Virus record (IMG/VR): IMGVR_UViG_3300017751_000022
Span: 1 to 54,722 of that record
Reading direction: 5' to 3' (one strand)
Length of the DNA stretch: 54,722 nt
DNA from: a virus
The notes under the pieces are model-generated. The model was not told where the DNA came from. It ran no database searches and saw only the letters and a list, made by a program, of their open reading frames with translations. Shown piece by piece: positions 18,142-27,137 of the stretch (positions are counted from its first letter, which is position 1; every line of letters starts with the position of its first letter). Both the position numbers and the translations under genes were made by a program.

Positions 18142-20961
18142 ATGACAGTTTCAAAATACACAAAGTTTGGTTTACGAGCAGATAGAAACCTATCAGATTT
18201 ACCTGATGCAAATACTGCGTTAGGCAATGTATTAGACGATTTCGATATTAACGCAGAATTCGTTCCTGCTGATTTAAATGTTATAGACGGGTTAAGAACA
18301 ACGAATCTATATGTTGAAGATTTTACTGAATTAGAAAACGGTCTACAGCAATATCAACCTATTGTGCAGAATGCTGACGGAATCAATATCGTAGGCATAA
18401 GAGAACCTGTCAATCCTTTAGTGACTGTTAGAGATAATCTTTTAAATAAGAAATCTGTATTAGGTGATCCGCCTTACGGTGTTGGGGGAACTGGTCCTAC
18501 TACAAAAGTCGTAGCTTCTACTATTCTTAGAGACGGTGTACTGGGTGATGGCGATGACGCTATTGATGCAGATCATCTTAAAGTATTGACTGTTACCGCA
18601 ATTGATTCTGGTGCCACTATTACTGTTGATCAAGCATCGTACAATGTTCGTATAGGCGATTTGATTACAATAACAGGTACAATCACTAACGGTGCAATAC
18701 CTGGATACACAACAGGAAAACAATACTTAGTTACTGCTATAAATTCTCTTGCAGGACAAGTTATTGCGTTCGATATTAAAGATGCTGATACTGGAGCAGC
18801 AATCACATCAGCGACAGCAGGAACACTCGCAGGCGCAACATTTACAGTAATTCGAAATTCTGCAAATATCAGCCACGATTTGTCTGCCACACCTGATGAT
18901 ATCTTTGATACGGCAAATGAAACTGTTATTACTAATGACGAGTATTGGGTAAATGGTATTTTTGCATTCAGTAACAGATTGCATCAGACATTTAAAGATG
19001 AATTTGGAGCATTACATTTTGACGGATACATAGGAAATCCTAATCGCCTTGATATATGGATACAAACAAACGGATTTTTGTTATTTGAAAAGTTTGACGA
19101 AGATGGTCAGCGTGTAATAGTGAAACAAGTGACTCAAGAAGAATTTGATGTGACTATGATTGGTGGCGTGTCAACCAATTATTTTTCAGTTAGCGAAAGT
19201 GATATGACACACCTAATGCGAGGAATGACATTTACTGATGATAATGGGACAGAGATAGAAATAACAAACTTATCTTCGACAAGTAGTTCAAATAATTATG
19301 TGACATGTAGCCCCAATCCTGTATTGGCTACTAACTCTATAATCACAATATCGTATGATTATGGCAACACAAACGTAATTACCGAGCGCTATAAACCTGA
19401 TGATTTGCTAAGAGGAGAAAATCAAAGACACAGATTGACACTATGGTGGCCTAATGTTACTAAATTTAGTCCTCAAAAAACAAGAGGGTTTTATTCATCT
19501 GCATATGCAAAAATTGATATTGCGGACGGATCAACATCATTGTATGATGGAATGCCTTACTTCTATTGGTACAAAGAAAAGCAAGGTGCGCCAAAATCAG
19601 TTCCTAAACAATATACGTTTGAGAAATTTAAAAGGGATCGTATAAGTTATACTAACACTCAAACTGAAGAGCATGTTTCAAACGAAAATCCGGTATTCAT
19701 TAGATATACTCCACCTGCACCAACTGAACTTAGTTCAATTTCTCGTAATACTTTTTCAAGTAGTCAATTTTACGTAGAGGGTGGCATCCAATGGAACGGT
19801 CAGTATAAGTTTGCGGTTCCTGGTTCGTTGGGAGTACAGGTTGGTGATTACATGTATATGACTCCCGGTAATGCATCATATACAAATCACTATCTTTTAC
19901 AAGTTGTTGAAATAAAAAATAATATTGCAACAATGAATCCTCACCAAGCAACAGATATTGATACTATAATGAGTTATTATGGTTTGTCTGAGGGTGATGC
20001 AGTTAATTCTTGGTGGATTCGAGGTGATTCAGGTATAGCAGGAATTTACAGTAGTGTAAGTGGAATTTCATTAACCGGGGCATCAGAAGTTGCAACACAT
20101 TCAATTAAACCTGTTTTGAATCATGCTGATTATGGTTTCACTACCGCAGATCCTGTTGTTGGTGATTATGTAGCAGAACTATCGGCATCAGGACATGATC
20201 AAATGAGAAGAATATCAGGATTAAGTATTAACTTAAGCAATCCTGGTGCTGACGGATCATTTACTTCAACACACATAGGAGGTCCTGCAACTTATTCGGT
20301 AGGTGCCGCACCTAGTCCTGTTGTTGTGATTGCACATCGTGGGTTGGTTGACAGATCGATTGCCGAGGTTTGTACTGATGTGTACGGCCTTGAAGTGACT
20401 GCTAATACTGCAGGTGGTGTAGCAACCAGTGACGAAATAACAGTAACTGATACATCAGCAATTCTTGTTGGTGATTATATTCAATTTGAAGGTTTGGGTG
20501 GCGCAAATGATCCGGTAATCCCAACAGGAACAACAGTAGCAAGTGTTGACTCGGCAACTCAAATAACAATTAGTAACGCAATTCCTTCAGGTAAAACTCT
20601 TAATGCTGCTTCAACCGTTGTATTGATTAGGGCAAATGCAGGACCTAATACCGATGCATGGGGAAATAATGGAGGATATTCTAATAAAGAGGCATGTGTT
20701 CTCCCATTAAACACCGCACCGCCCTTTGTTGGGACTAATTTAGGTCTAGCAACAACTAGCACTCACCCTCATATTGTTGTCGGGGGAGAATTTGGTGTGA
20801 CAGGATTGAAAATTGCGCCTCCGCCAGAAACTGGCGATTCTACGACAGTTGATGAAGTTGCTGCTGGAGACGTAAAAGCAACTAAAGGAATGCTAGTCAA
20901 AAACAAACCTAATAATATTGACCCGCTAAATTCATATTGGGTTTTAATGGAAGATGCTTAA
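18142..20961 (+). CDS. Large virion structural protein, only plus-strand gene
   Basis: A 939-residue protein. The N-terminus (KYTKFGLRADRNLSDLPDAN then TALGNVLDDFD) and VGIREPVNPLVTVRDNLLNK with GDPPYGVGGTGP resemble a conserved large structural protein of T4-like marine phages (from memory, function not established). The middle is Tyr/Trp-rich with WWPNVTKFSPQKTRGFYSSA and MPYFYWYKEKQGAPKSVPKQ. Residues about 755-835 carry a beta module (ITVTDTSAILVGDYIQFEG, TTVASVDSATQITISNAI) of the 'GD.i...gi..gTtVasVds.tqitlS' type seen in marine fibres. The ribosome site GAGG is at 18132-18135. Its stop (20959-20961) overlaps the stop of the convergent gene by sharing TTAA. All other genes here are on the other strand, so this gene is a local inversion. 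Confidence 0.75.
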   Translation: MTVSKYTKFGLRADRNLSDLPDANTALGNVLDDFDINAEFVPADLNVIDGLRTTNLYVEDFTELENGLQQYQPIVQNADGINIVGIREPVNPLVTVRDNLLNKKSVLGDPPYGVGGTGPTTKVVASTILRDGVLGDGDDAIDADHLKVLTVTAIDSGATITVDQASYNVRIGDLITITGTITNGAIPGYTTGKQYLVTAINSLAGQVIAFDIKDADTGAAITSATAGTLAGATFTVIRNSANISHDLSATPDDIFDTANETVITNDEYWVNGIFAFSNRLHQTFKDEFGALHFDGYIGNPNRLDIWIQTNGFLLFEKFDEDGQRVIVKQVTQEEFDVTMIGGVSTNYFSVSESDMTHLMRGMTFTDDNGTEIEITNLSSTSSSNNYVTCSPNPVLATNSIITISYDYGNTNVITERYKPDDLLRGENQRHRLTLWWPNVTKFSPQKTRGFYSSAYAKIDIADGSTSLYDGMPYFYWYKEKQGAPKSVPKQYTFEKFKRDRISYTNTQTEEHVSNENPVFIRYTPPAPTELSSISRNTFSSSQFYVEGGIQWNGQYKFAVPGSLGVQVGDYMYMTPGNASYTNHYLLQVVEIKNNIATMNPHQATDIDTIMSYYGLSEGDAVNSWWIRGDSGIAGIYSSVSGISLTGASEVATHSIKPVLNHADYGFTTADPVVGDYVAELSASGHDQMRRISGLSINLSNPGADGSFTSTHIGGPATYSVGAAPSPVVVIAHRGLVDRSIAEVCTDVYGLEVTANTAGGVATSDEITVTDTSAILVGDYIQFEGLGGANDPVIPTGTTVASVDSATQITISNAIPSGKTLNAASTVVLIRANAGPNTDAWGNNGGYSNKEACVLPLNTAPPFVGTNLGLATTSTHPHIVVGGEFGVTGLKIAPPPETGDSTTVDEVAAGDVKATKGMLVKNKPNNIDPLNSYWVLMEDA

Positions 20962-22433: not shown

Positions 22434-25400
22434 CTACGCATTGATTGAAAGCTGCCAATTGGCAGTTGTTGTTAATTTTTGTATAATCCCAGCAAGGACT
22501 GGGTTTTCTACCAGTTGTGATAATGAAATTTGCGGATTACCAAGCAAGTTAATATTTACATTGCCTCGCTTTGCGTTTTCATAATTCTGTTCAAGGTCTC
22601 TAAGAAGCCTTTCTGCTGATCCCGCAGACAATTGGTTATTGCTCAAGTTTAATGAATTTAACGATGTGCAATCAGGAAGAGAGCCCAACAAATATTCAAT
22701 TAAATTGTTATCTTGCAAATATATCTCTTGTATATTTAAACAATTGTCAAACCTTGGGACGATACCTGCAATGTTATTGTTGTTCGCTTTAAACTTCCAC
22801 AACTGCGCCGCTTCTAAATTTGCAACTTGAGATAACTGGTTATTGTCTATTGATATTTCATCAACAAAAGCGTTCGATATTGTAAACGCACCTGAGAACT
22901 TGTTATTACTTAGTGTCAAAGTAGATAAACTTCCCGCACCAGAGAAGTCAGGTATTTGGCCAGTCATTTCTGTATTAGTAATTTTAAATGTTGAAATTGA
23001 TGCAAGGAATGTCACATTCGGGAACTTTCCACGAATGTTTTTTGAAGTTGCAGATGCATTCTTTCCTTTGCCTTCAAGTTCGAATGTTGCCAAATTAGCA
23101 CAGTTAGCAAATGTCGCAGATGTACCTTGTATTTCAACAGCAGTTCCCGCTACTAACGGCACTCGTCTTACAGGTCTAACATAATATACATGATTCTTGT
23201 TTTCTAATATTTCTTTGCCGTCTATAAAACTCTTAGCGTATCCGTCAACATTATTATTAGCACTTGTTGATGTCCAGTAGTAACCTGTGCGATTGGTAAT
23301 AGAAACATTATCAATTGTGAAATTGCAGTTGTGTGATTCTACTCTCACATGAATTTGCGTTGATGCATTTACTGCAAATGTTCCTGAAACTGGACCTGAA
23401 CCTGCTGATGCTAAAACTTCACCTGTACCTAAAACATCACCTGCAGTTGGCGAACTTCCTGTAGCAACTGTTAAAACTGCTTTGTCTTGCTCAGCATCTG
23501 TTCCCCCGTCATAAAGCGTAGCTGAAGCGCCATTAATTGCGGCACCATCATTTGCGGCAGTGAATAGGTCGCCTAATGTTGGCGACCCTGAAAGGCCAGC
23601 GGCATTCCAGTCGAAGGCGTGATTAGATGTGAAATCATACCTGTTATTCGATCTTGATACAATAGCAATCAAGCCTCCCATTGCACTGTGGAATTGGCAA
23701 CCATAGTTAATGGCAACAATAGTCCCATCAGTTGCAGTAATTGTTGAAATGCCGTTAGACGTTGAAACAGTGACTCCTGAAGAAGAAGTAAACTGTAGAG
23801 GGTGATTAACACTGCCAATATAATTTGCATTGGAAGGATCCGTTCTGTTGTCAATTATTAAAGTGTCGCCAGTATATAATTTGAGAGAAGGATCATTCGA
23901 TGAACTGTATGAACTTTCAGAATCAGTGCCCGACAATATGTAATTGCTATTGCCGTCTGCACCAGTTATTGTTAAAGTATGCGTTTGCGGAGAATTGTCT
24001 TCAGTAAATTCATGAACTACAGGAGTTGCTGCAGTTGCATTTGCATAACTAGTTGCTAGTTTAAATGTATTAGTGCCTGTTTTAATTGTATAATAATCTG
24101 CATTTGCACTCAAACCTGTAACTGAACCCACTTGTCCCGAATCAAGCGAAAATTCAACTCGACCACCTGTAACAAAAGGATGTCCATTCGATGTGATTTG
24201 ATTGTTGCCAAAATCTAAATTAGCGTACGGAACATTATTAACACTGGCACGCTGAGTTCCAACGGATACAACCTTATACTCTTCACCAGTAACAAAGTTT
24301 CCTCCAGTTACAACATTTTGGTCACACGTAATAGCAGCAGAGAAGTCATATGTCCCCTTAGGTAGAACTATAACTTGATATACACCTGCATCGCCGTCTC
24401 CGTCCTGTGTCACAGATAAGTTTTGTCCTGCCGTGACTGCTGTCGAACCACCAGAGAATGGCGACCAGTTCGCTGATGTGCCTGAGATAAATGTTCCGTT
24501 TAACACTTTTTCATCTGGTGTATCAACATTAAATGCTTGCGCTCCACCTGCTTGGAATGCACTTGATGAGGTTTGCCCTGGATTTCCTTGTGTATAAGTT
24601 GCGTTATATGAGGGAACTGAATTCAAATTATTTCCCTGTGTTATGTCGTTTGCATCTGAACTAGGTTTCAAGTTTCTGTATATTACCTCTAATTCATCTT
24701 GTGACGGCAAATACCAATCAGTAAAATTCTGTCCGCCATTGATAGAACTGTCAGTATTATTGATATCCAATGCATCAGCAAAGGCAGCTGCTTCATAAGA
24801 AACTCCGCCCGCTGCTTCCGGCGTTGTATTAACCCAACCATTTGCACCGTCAACGCCACCTGCTGAGGCATCACCAGCGCCAGAATATCTAGCCAAAAAC
24901 CTTTCGTGTGATTTATCAGCTACAATAAGATAATATGTGTCAGATGCGAGCGTTCCAGAATTATCCTTCATAACTCCGCCGTAATAACCGCCTTGGAAAC
25001 TACTACCATAAGGTCCTGCGGGAGGAACAACAGTTTGCAATTGGAAATCGTTTGCAAAGAAATTGTATTCTGCATCGTCAAGTATGTGATTTACACCGTT
25101 ACTATCAGTGAAGTCATGATTGCCATCTGTCATTTTGAAGTATGACAAACTAGTTGTTCCATTAAATGTGTCGGGAGACAACCTTCCTGTGAACCTAGTG
25201 TTACCCAGACTCAAAGTTGTTAATGATGGCAAATTTTGAAAAGTATTATTGATTCTGCCATTAACATAACTATTTGCTAAATATACTGCTCCTAATGATT
25301 CACATCCGCTAAAGTAACCTTCAATGCCCGTTGACGTGGGCGGATTTGCATATGAATACAACTCAGATAATGTGACACTTTCTAAATACTTTTTACCAGA

Positions 25401-27137
25401 AAAATCAGGAACAGAAATGTTGTTGCCTACTAAAGACACCTTTGTTAAAGGATGTTCACCTGCCTGCCCAGCAGAGTTTGTATTAGGAAATGTCAATACG
25501 CTTTGATTGGTTCCATTTGCAAGCTTTTGACCATCAATGTTGCAGTATGCGACATCTATGTGTGTCAACTTTAATGAAGACATTACACTATAAGATAATT
25601 TCGTGTATCTGTGATTTCTTACATGATAAACTTTGATCGTGTTTGAATTAACTTTAGGTGTCTCGCCGGTATCAAACATTGTTCTAGTGGGAGAACCTGA
25701 ATAATACGCATTCCAATATAAATGAGTCAATGAACTATCAGTTAATTTTGTTATTTTATAATCGAAACCTGATGATGGCGGTGTCAATGTAAGAGAACTT
25801 CCACCAGAACTTCCAGAAAGTTTTACGCTATCACTATCAGCACTTACGACATAATATTGGCCATAGTTTGTCAAATTTGATATTGCTGAATTTGATTCTT
25901 GCTCATACACAACCACATCACCGTTTTGCAACCCGTGTCCCGCTGATACGATTTCATTATTGCTGACACTAGCAACATTAAATGTTATTGATTGTGTTGT
26001 TTTTAATGATGATAAATCAATAAAAGTACTGTCAGAGAATGTCGCATTGATACTCAACTTTGTTACTGATGCAGGACACCTTGTTAAAAGTTGTGTGTGC
26101 GCTGTCAAAGAGTTATCTTTTGTACTGAAACCGTTACCTGACATAGAAATTTCTCTCAAATTCTGAGAATGCCCATTAATGTACCCGCCTGCTATTTTAA
26201 AGAAGTCAGGAAATTCATTAAATAGGTTTGCTGGCGCACTAAATAGATTAAGGTTTTTCAATTCAGCATCTGGAAGATTTCTCAATCCCATGGATGAAAA
26301 TTTTAATTGTATAACACCAGAAGGATTATAGAAAAGTTCTAATTTCTTATCAGCGGGTGATGATTCAAATGATGCTGTCTGTAATGCACTACTATTTGCT
26401 GACCCAAAAACTGCAACCCTTTGCACAGGATCTATGTTTTCGTTGACAAATTCAACCGCAGGAGTAACGCTCGTGGGCGATACTTTATATTCAAGTTTTC
26501 CTAACTGCCAAAAACCTTCGAATGTCAACGGAATGTTTTTCATCGCATATAATTTTCTATTAGTTCCGTTGATGTTCATTGTGATTTGATGCGTTGCAAC
26601 CTCAGCGTCAAATTTCCTAGGTGTAACTTCACCTTTAAAAATTATATTGTCTGTTTTTACGACACTTTTTGTAGAATGTGCGTAGGATGTTGTGCTTGAA
26701 TCATAAGGGTTTATTTTGAGGTCAGCATTATAGAACACAGGACCATCACCAATTTGTGACCAAGATGATATACGACTTGTGGATATATCTGCACTTTTTG
26801 TTGCACCTAAACTGTCAACATAGTTGTATTTTATTGCACCTGCTCTAAGTTGATGATCAATTCTTAAGTCAGATTGTAATCCATCAGTAGTATCTGAAAG
26901 TGCAGTAAGTTCGCCAGTCACATACTCAGATGATTTAAACAAACTAAATTGTTGTTTTTCTTGATCTAGGTCAAGATTTCCCAACAGGTGTAGCATTTGT
27001 TTTGTTAAACCTGCAGAGGCAATACCACGAATATGGTCAAGGTCATCTCTATTTACACCCAAATTCTTCAATGACAGTTCTAAGTCATTGACATCGTTGA
27101 GGTAAAACCCTGTATTTAGACCTATAAATTTTGCCAT
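22434..27137 (-). CDS. Giant nested adhesin: LRR, split DUF1566, jelly roll, cupredoxin-like domain
   Basis: 1567 residues. Residues about 1-240 form an attachment-type N-terminus (DLELSLKNLGVNRDDLDHIR; TSRISSWSQIGDGPVFYNAD). Leucine-rich repeats run at about 275-375 and 515-675 and again at 1340-1510 (SLTTLSLGNTRFTGRLSPDT; SLNSLNLSNNQLS). HGL modules lie at about 385-462 and 973-1057. A DUF1566/Lcl_C-type lectin-like domain starts near 735 (NFTDWYLPSQDELEVIYRNL) and resumes at 1287 (YYWTSTSA ... YYVRPVRR). Between these is a CBM-like jelly roll (VLNGTFISGTSANW; GVYQVIVLPKGTYDF; then NCNFTIDNVSI). A cupredoxin-like domain at about 1063-1161 has candidate copper ligands His1112, Cys1147, His1150 and Met1153. 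It is probably a receptor-binding virion protein; a copper role is inference. The ATG overlaps the upstream stop (TAATG). Confidence 0.7.
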   Translation of the reverse strand: MAKFIGLNTGFYLNDVNDLELSLKNLGVNRDDLDHIRGIASAGLTKQMLHLLGNLDLDQEKQQFSLFKSSEYVTGELTALSDTTDGLQSDLRIDHQLRAGAIKYNYVDSLGATKSADISTSRISSWSQIGDGPVFYNADLKINPYDSSTTSYAHSTKSVVKTDNIIFKGEVTPRKFDAEVATHQITMNINGTNRKLYAMKNIPLTFEGFWQLGKLEYKVSPTSVTPAVEFVNENIDPVQRVAVFGSANSSALQTASFESSPADKKLELFYNPSGVIQLKFSSMGLRNLPDAELKNLNLFSAPANLFNEFPDFFKIAGGYINGHSQNLREISMSGNGFSTKDNSLTAHTQLLTRCPASVTKLSINATFSDSTFIDLSSLKTTQSITFNVASVSNNEIVSAGHGLQNGDVVVYEQESNSAISNLTNYGQYYVVSADSDSVKLSGSSGGSSLTLTPPSSGFDYKITKLTDSSLTHLYWNAYYSGSPTRTMFDTGETPKVNSNTIKVYHVRNHRYTKLSYSVMSSLKLTHIDVAYCNIDGQKLANGTNQSVLTFPNTNSAGQAGEHPLTKVSLVGNNISVPDFSGKKYLESVTLSELYSYANPPTSTGIEGYFSGCESLGAVYLANSYVNGRINNTFQNLPSLTTLSLGNTRFTGRLSPDTFNGTTSLSYFKMTDGNHDFTDSNGVNHILDDAEYNFFANDFQLQTVVPPAGPYGSSFQGGYYGGVMKDNSGTLASDTYYLIVADKSHERFLARYSGAGDASAGGVDGANGWVNTTPEAAGGVSYEAAAFADALDINNTDSSINGGQNFTDWYLPSQDELEVIYRNLKPSSDANDITQGNNLNSVPSYNATYTQGNPGQTSSSAFQAGGAQAFNVDTPDEKVLNGTFISGTSANWSPFSGGSTAVTAGQNLSVTQDGDGDAGVYQVIVLPKGTYDFSAAITCDQNVVTGGNFVTGEEYKVVSVGTQRASVNNVPYANLDFGNNQITSNGHPFVTGGRVEFSLDSGQVGSVTGLSANADYYTIKTGTNTFKLATSYANATAATPVVHEFTEDNSPQTHTLTITGADGNSNYILSGTDSESSYSSSNDPSLKLYTGDTLIIDNRTDPSNANYIGSVNHPLQFTSSSGVTVSTSNGISTITATDGTIVAINYGCQFHSAMGGLIAIVSRSNNRYDFTSNHAFDWNAAGLSGSPTLGDLFTAANDGAAINGASATLYDGGTDAEQDKAVLTVATGSSPTAGDVLGTGEVLASAGSGPVSGTFAVNASTQIHVRVESHNCNFTIDNVSITNRTGYYWTSTSANNNVDGYAKSFIDGKEILENKNHVYYVRPVRRVPLVAGTAVEIQGTSATFANCANLATFELEGKGKNASATSKNIRGKFPNVTFLASISTFKITNTEMTGQIPDFSGAGSLSTLTLSNNKFSGAFTISNAFVDEISIDNNQLSQVANLEAAQLWKFKANNNNIAGIVPRFDNCLNIQEIYLQDNNLIEYLLGSLPDCTSLNSLNLSNNQLSAGSAERLLRDLEQNYENAKRGNVNINLLGNPQISLSQLVENPVLAGIIQKLTTTANWQLSINA

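Follow-up and report, generated by a model that had tools for sequence, protein, structure and literature searches.

The locus analysed here raises the question whether a virion adhesin can carry a metal site of the blue-copper type, and what such a site would do there. The window, that is, the whole stretch of 54,722 bases of a virus record (IMG/VR record IMGVR_UViG_3300017751_000022) from an uncultured marine phage, contains on its minus strand an ORF of 1567 amino acids (22434-27137), in which the first-pass annotation had recognized a small cupredoxin at residues 1063-1161. Predicted fold and family-profile homology both bear out the presence of such a domain, and the proposed copper ligands, His1112, Cys1147, His1150 and Met1153, are located exactly at the positions assigned to them; only the domain limits need revision, to about residues 1049-1163 (23649-23993, minus strand). 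The features referred to below are as follows.

22434-27137, minus strand: virion adhesin or tail-associated protein, 1567 residues, with leucine-rich repeats, a split Lcl_C domain, inserted modules and again leucine-rich repeats
24522-25034, minus strand: N-terminal part of an Lcl_C-type domain, residues 702-872 (32% identity to PMBT3 residues 15-169)
24324-24500, minus strand: probable first half of a jelly roll of the carbohydrate-binding type, residues ~880-938 (model strands with pLDDT 68-83)
23649-23993, minus strand: cupredoxin domain, residues 1049-1163 (family HMM, motif-free HMM, AlphaFold, Foldseek and VIA)
23802-23804, minus strand: codon of His1112, predicted N-terminal copper ligand, with Pro1113 next to it (alignment and orthologues)
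23697-23699, minus strand: codon of Cys1147, predicted copper ligand (alignment and orthologues)
23688-23690, minus strand: codon of His1150, predicted copper ligand (alignment and orthologues)
23679-23681, minus strand: codon of Met1153, predicted axial ligand (alignment and orthologues)
23289-23501, minus strand: probable second half of the jelly roll, residues ~1213-1283, inferred from the model (strands with pLDDT 82-84 at model residues 549-589)
23142-23288, minus strand: C-terminal part of the Lcl_C domain, residues 1284-1332 (Pfam profile positions 73-117 at residues 1281-1324; PMBT3 residues 168-217)

Architecture of the adhesin

On both flanks of the adhesin ORF, PHROG profiles of baseplate wedge subunits and tail-fibre proteins are matched, as in a T4-like structural module. 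The 1567-residue protein itself yields Pfam matches to Lcl_C (1.1e-6) and LRR_8 (6.5e-6) that both fall under the curated cut-offs, and as a whole it matches no PHROG profile, including PHROG 677, with which it has only the cupredoxin domain in common. Amid the long series of minus-strand structural genes there is also a plus-strand ORF of 939 amino acids (18142-20961), for which neither PHROG nor Pfam returned a match.

The match to the lectin-like domain Lcl_C (PF07603; 29.4 bits, cut-off 34.9) is divided into two separate stretches. Since the corresponding parts are contiguous in a 217-residue protein of Pseudomonas phage PMBT3, which served as comparator, about 411 residues (873-1283) have been inserted in the adhesin. 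The insertion contains two jelly-roll-like segments, a GHPF module and the cupredoxin. The jelly-roll halves flank the cupredoxin and, judging from sequence style, appear to constitute a split domain nested within the Lcl insertion; Pfam DUF5013 weakly matches residues 895-1000 (E 0.004). The GHPF module (pattern NNxIxSxGHxxxxGxxVxxxxxSxxxxxxxLxxxxxYYxxxxxxxxxKLxxS) occurs twice in the adhesin, at residues ~393-443 and, just before the cupredoxin, at ~978-1030 (about 25961-25809 and 24206-24048, minus strand; a two-sequence BLAST gave 7e-7). An AlphaFold model of residues 702-1335 is poor overall (pLDDT 53, pTM 0.36), with the blocks of the cupredoxin mostly at 80-89 in this context.

Predicted fold and homology to cupredoxins

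The motif C-x2-H-x2-M occurs a single time in the adhesin (23679-23699, minus strand), and its combination with a His 20-60 residues upstream arose in 0.075% of 20,000 shuffles of the protein. Single-sequence searches with the domain alone against viral contigs, phage genomes and PDB sequences gave nothing significant, and Pfam, NCBIfam and PHROGs returned no cupredoxin match for it; its relatives were reached via a motif scan and profiles only. When a family profile comprising 113 independent viral domains was compared with the ORFs of the window, the adhesin was the sole match (E 8.7e-8, residues 1049-1163). The same residues were matched at E 1.8e-5 after the profile had been cut before its LYYxCxxHxxMGG end, and hence the match reflects homology and not the motif alone.

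AlphaFold modelling of the domain, with an alignment of 82 family members (A1) as input, predicts a Greek-key β-sandwich of the cupredoxin type with 10 strands (pLDDT 81.2 overall, and 91 in block 101-110 holding Cys-His-Met). In the cupredoxin superfamily, which includes the blue copper proteins active in photosynthesis, such a sandwich has about 7-8 strands. The order of the ligands in the model is canonical: the first His precedes a strand, the Cys ends the next-to-last strand (96-102), and the second His and the Met reside in the loop leading to the last strand. The best PDB matches of this model are all copper proteins. In Foldseek, the four best matches, and the sole ones at E<=0.001, belong to the three-domain copper nitrite reductase of Hyphomicrobium (E 4e-5), below which mostly small laccases and rusticyanin are found, with modest TM-scores (0.47). 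The VIA comparison gave Z-scores of 9.4 and 9.2 to 2dv6 and 6tfo (101 residues at 2.8 Å for 6tfo); values under 8 may reflect a common arrangement of strands, and the top three matches exceed 8. The VIA list likewise consists mostly of cupredoxin-fold chains, from nitrite reductase, laccases and factor VIII. The best structural counterpart is thus the N-terminal cupredoxin domain of the Hyphomicrobium enzyme (2dv6, 6tfo; ~101-104 residues, 17-18% identity), which differs, however, in being part of an enzyme with a catalytic copper, whereas the adhesin comprises no enzyme.

The first-pass annotation had anticipated that a profile search would lead to plastocyanin-like families; with the profile of alignment A1, PDB sequences of copper proteins indeed ranked first, among them cupredoxin domains of copper nitrite reductase, pseudoazurin and plastocyanin, at weak E-values (0.004 to 0.3) and with antibody folds mixed in. 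A search of the motif-carrying genomes with PF00127 (Copper-bind, the plastocyanin/azurin family; cut-off 21.2 bits) provided 22 cellular domains, two of which come close to the window domain: (i) a Prochlorococcus cupredoxin in a 148-residue frame with an apparent signal peptide (L333; 32.7 bits to PF00127), and (ii) a domain of a flavobacterial multidomain surface protein (L330; 28.1 bits). Their BLAST E-values to the window domain are 2e-5 and 8e-7, respectively, in a small set, with the likeness lying in the diagnostic stretch SNYxLSGxDxxxxxSxNDPSxxxxxGD, and the phage HMM matches them at 3e-15 and 7e-13. Profile-profile comparison with the other cellular PF00127 domains, L333 and L330 left aside, gave a probability of 91% (E 9.5e-7) with the ligand columns in register. 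PF00127 gave no match to the window domain itself, and the domains of two orthologous adhesins score slightly under it (20.9 and 20.5 bits).

In plastocyanin, azurin and amicyanin the first His ligand is directly followed by Asn, and His-Asn also prevails in the other cellular PF00127 domains sampled. In contrast, the window domain has His-Pro, as do 74 of the 82 family members; His-Pro at the position of the first ligand is known from multicopper oxidases, e.g., laccases, at their T1 site. Based on sequence, we therefore classify the domain under the cupredoxin superfamily, with which it shares predicted fold, ligand set and ligand order, and neither under PF00127, from which it also differs in being part of a phage adhesin and not a free periplasmic electron carrier, nor under amicyanin. 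The latter had been invoked by the first-pass annotation for its C-x2-H-x2-M loop. This spacing is indeed that of amicyanin and is reproduced by Cys1147, His1150 and Met1153, but the likeness is limited to the loop: because the first His is followed by Pro1113 and not Asn, the domain should not be named amicyanin, which also occurs in a different context. Amicyanin is absent among the sequence or structure matches listed, although nothing is excluded thereby.

Conservation and joint loss of the ligands

Two syntenic orthologues of the window adhesin, one of 1522 residues and 40% identical end to end (L312), the other of ~1550 residues and ~30% identical (L311/L313), carry the domain in the same place. 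Conservation in close homologues, on which the first-pass annotation had staked its reading, is evident in both: all four ligands are kept in L312 (SHP...YVCQIHSSMNG) and in L311 (SHP...YQCSTHPASMKG), although identity to the window domain is just 33% and 25% in the two orthologues. In L311 the His-Met spacing is longer by one, so that the residues have been kept despite a changed loop length. Aligning the window domain with these two orthologues leaves 15 invariant columns out of 95, the four ligands among them (hypergeometric 4e-4).

In the 82-row alignment the four ligands are the sole invariant columns, albeit in rows partly chosen by the motif. A second scan was therefore based on a pattern lying between the ligands (YTTGVTxxGT), so that the sample was chosen independently of them; it comprised 71 complete domains at loci new to the analysis and was biased against the motif, since loci bearing the motif had been collected earlier. 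All four ligands are present in 60 of these domains, three have the first His only, and eight lack it together with Cys-His-Met. No domain among the 71 has Cys-His-Met but not the first His, which is gone as well in 8 of the 11 domains that lack Cys-His-Met. Joint keeping or loss is accordingly pronounced (Fisher 1.6e-8), even if this value, computed over related sequences without a tree-based count of losses, overstates the independent evidence. Ligands kept or lost together are what one expects of a shared metal site, and residues distant in sequence yet kept together therefore fit such a site. This all-or-none behaviour in the sequences argues for a working metal site.

Loop length varies across the family (C-x2-H-x2-M, C-x2-H-x3-M and C-x4-H) while the ligand residues stay. 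Four proteins (L131, L153, L028 and L132) contain tandem cupredoxin domains, with the copies in L131 and L153 being of the C-x2-H-x3-M type. Ligand-free copies belong to several sequence types, e.g., GLPLRF...YYYAEGTA and ASKTLKF...YIYCHESASHG. Cys-His-Met, and usually also the first His, has been lost in L142, L156, L177, L193, L137, L149, L163, L146, L122, L187 and L170. A copy in the cultured cyanophage PSS2 (L324) has lost both His ligands and the Cys and is, together with the other copies in which the ligands were jointly lost, a natural control for the putative metal site.

Distribution in phages

A copper-type site on a virion adhesin had seemed unusual to the first-pass annotation. The domain itself is not: it recurs in tail and baseplate proteins of marine phages. 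Scanning viral contigs for Y-Y-x-C-x2-H-x2-M-G-G identified at least 120 stretches in marine viral contigs, and in nearly all of the open frames the same domain precedes the motif, typically reading ...NKYxIDGxxQxTLxLxxGxTYxFDQSDSSNxxHPLRFSTT...YTTGVT...TLYYYCxxHSGMGG. When one family member was compared with isolate phages, 319 records were returned, all from cyanophages except for three named only as marine viruses; the names given to the proteins include baseplate wedge tail fibre connector (gp9), long tail fibre proximal subunit and tail spike protein. With another family member, the list extends to pelagiphages and a Methylophilales phage, and also to proteins annotated as virion structural. 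Cultured carriers include S-SSM5, Syn1, S-TIM5, HTVC028P and Mosig, and of the 11 isolates read, 10 retain the full ligand set, P-GSP1 being counted with its His-Pro and CTSHAAM; PSS2 is the exception.

The same phage proteins come first in a BFVD fold search with the window domain. This search also returns small proteins termed ‘beta-sandwich proteins’ from Pithovirus (A0A481Z7Q7, A0A481Z6J5) and Marseillevirus (A0A481YVH3).

The cyanophage connector gp9 (PHROG 677) provides a close parallel. Its C-terminal ~100 residues are the same domain, as indicated by a relative (L005) that matches profile positions 307-410 of 412 (E 2.3e-35), and the four ligands are kept in gp9 of S-SSM5. Over its full length, however, the window protein is not gp9: here the domain is internal and located within the split Lcl domain. 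The family constitutes a widespread and apparently undescribed branch of the cupredoxins, added as an extra domain to marine phage proteins of the tail, baseplate or adhesin type. In the open-licence literature we found no description of virion cupredoxins or of cupredoxins in phage tails, the nearest idea being iron bound by HxH motifs. An HxH iron site in the window adhesin was considered and rejected, as the 1567-residue protein contains no HxH motif.

Possible role of the predicted metal site

Taken together, sequence conservation and predicted fold lead us to favour, as the probable explanation, a cupredoxin domain whose type-1 site is intact, and which is loaded extracellularly and acts as a copper-stabilised display or contact module of the adhesin. 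His1112, Cys1147, His1150 and Met1153 of residues 1049-1163 would then form one mononuclear centre of the blue-copper type, presumably with a single copper ion bound per domain. Since virion proteins arise in the copper-poor cytoplasm, the domain would be made in its apo form and acquire its metal outside the cell, either in seawater or at the host envelope, where copper may tighten the loop between the last two strands. A compact, stabilised module for display or contact would seem a more plausible role than electron transfer, because no redox partner centre is seen in the adhesin.

Copper might alternatively serve host attachment directly, with the domain docking on, or baiting, an outer-membrane protein for copper or metal uptake, as a copper counterpart of the ‘Ferrojan horse’ proposed for iron. 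The location of the domain in tail fibres, baseplate-fibre connectors and adhesins would suit such a role, and tail-fibre metal sites together with a Trojan Horse proposal are on record for the HxH iron sites of T4 gp37 and of alterophage R22Y (PMC11705849). Those sites resemble the present one in being proposed for phage tail fibres, but they hold iron via paired histidines in a trimeric fibre and are not of the cupredoxin type. Furthermore, the domain is often located at the base, as in gp9-like connectors, or N-terminally in fibres and not at the tip, bacteria and archaea have it in proteins with no part in infection, and the site has been lost in some phages. We thus regard attachment via copper as unlikely.

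The known cupredoxins carry electrons in the periplasm or form domains of enzymes. A role in redox chemistry has to be weighed as well. Electron-transfer cupredoxins have this same ligand set and many carriers of the domain infect cyanobacteria, so that the site could sense or buffer redox state, e.g., against reactive oxygen at the surface of a phototrophic host. Yet neither a second redox centre nor a partner domain is seen in the adhesin, other carriers infect SAR11 and Methylophilales, and His-Pro in place of His-Asn beside the first ligand may alter the tuning of the site, which makes this role less likely still. Given that the assignment is based on sequence and predicted fold, and that Cys, His and Met could hold other ions, one may also think of zinc or iron, or of a metal-free structural cluster of Cys and His. 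With His, Cys, His and Met in canonical order and place within a cupredoxin fold, and with the nearest cellular relatives exceeding the PF00127 cut-off, we consider this improbable. Finally, a chance motif in a generic immunoglobulin-like β-sandwich devoid of a metal site might be imagined, phage adhesins being rich in β-sandwiches and some of the PDB profile matches being antibodies, but it is hardly credible in view of ligands that are invariant in orthologues at 25-33% domain identity and lost in an all-or-none fashion, and of the homology to PF00127 proteins.

The intact ligand set and the broad occurrence of the domain suggest, but do not prove, that ocean phage particles carry copper. 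Copper binding at this site would make metalloprotein particles of a large share of the marine phages, hundreds of sequenced cyanophages among them, with a bearing on host attachment, virion stability and the trace-metal chemistry of seawater, for which phage-bound iron is already being discussed. One may go further and speculate, with clearly less confidence than for the domain itself, that tailed phages of the ocean commonly bear type-1 copper centres on their virions, in domains of tail fibres, baseplate connectors and adhesins metallated extracellularly, and that copper controls fibre stability or attachment; virions would in that case be a reservoir of protein-bound seawater copper that has so far gone uncounted.

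Occurrence in cellular genomes

The motif is also found in SAR86, Nitrosomonadales, Flavobacteriia, Photobacterium, haloarchaea and marine group II archaea, where some of the contigs may be phage binned with host. The same branch of cupredoxins is used in marine bacteria and archaea, in proteins that are secreted or lie at the cell surface. Within Gammaproteobacteria and Nitrosomonadales a distinct sub-family is discernible that reads HDFYxST...YYxCRNHKxMGG(K/Q)IxIV near the N-terminal half of frames of 270-550 residues (L194, L197, L198, L209, L216, L223, L238, L272 and others), and which is possibly a separate family of secreted copper proteins.
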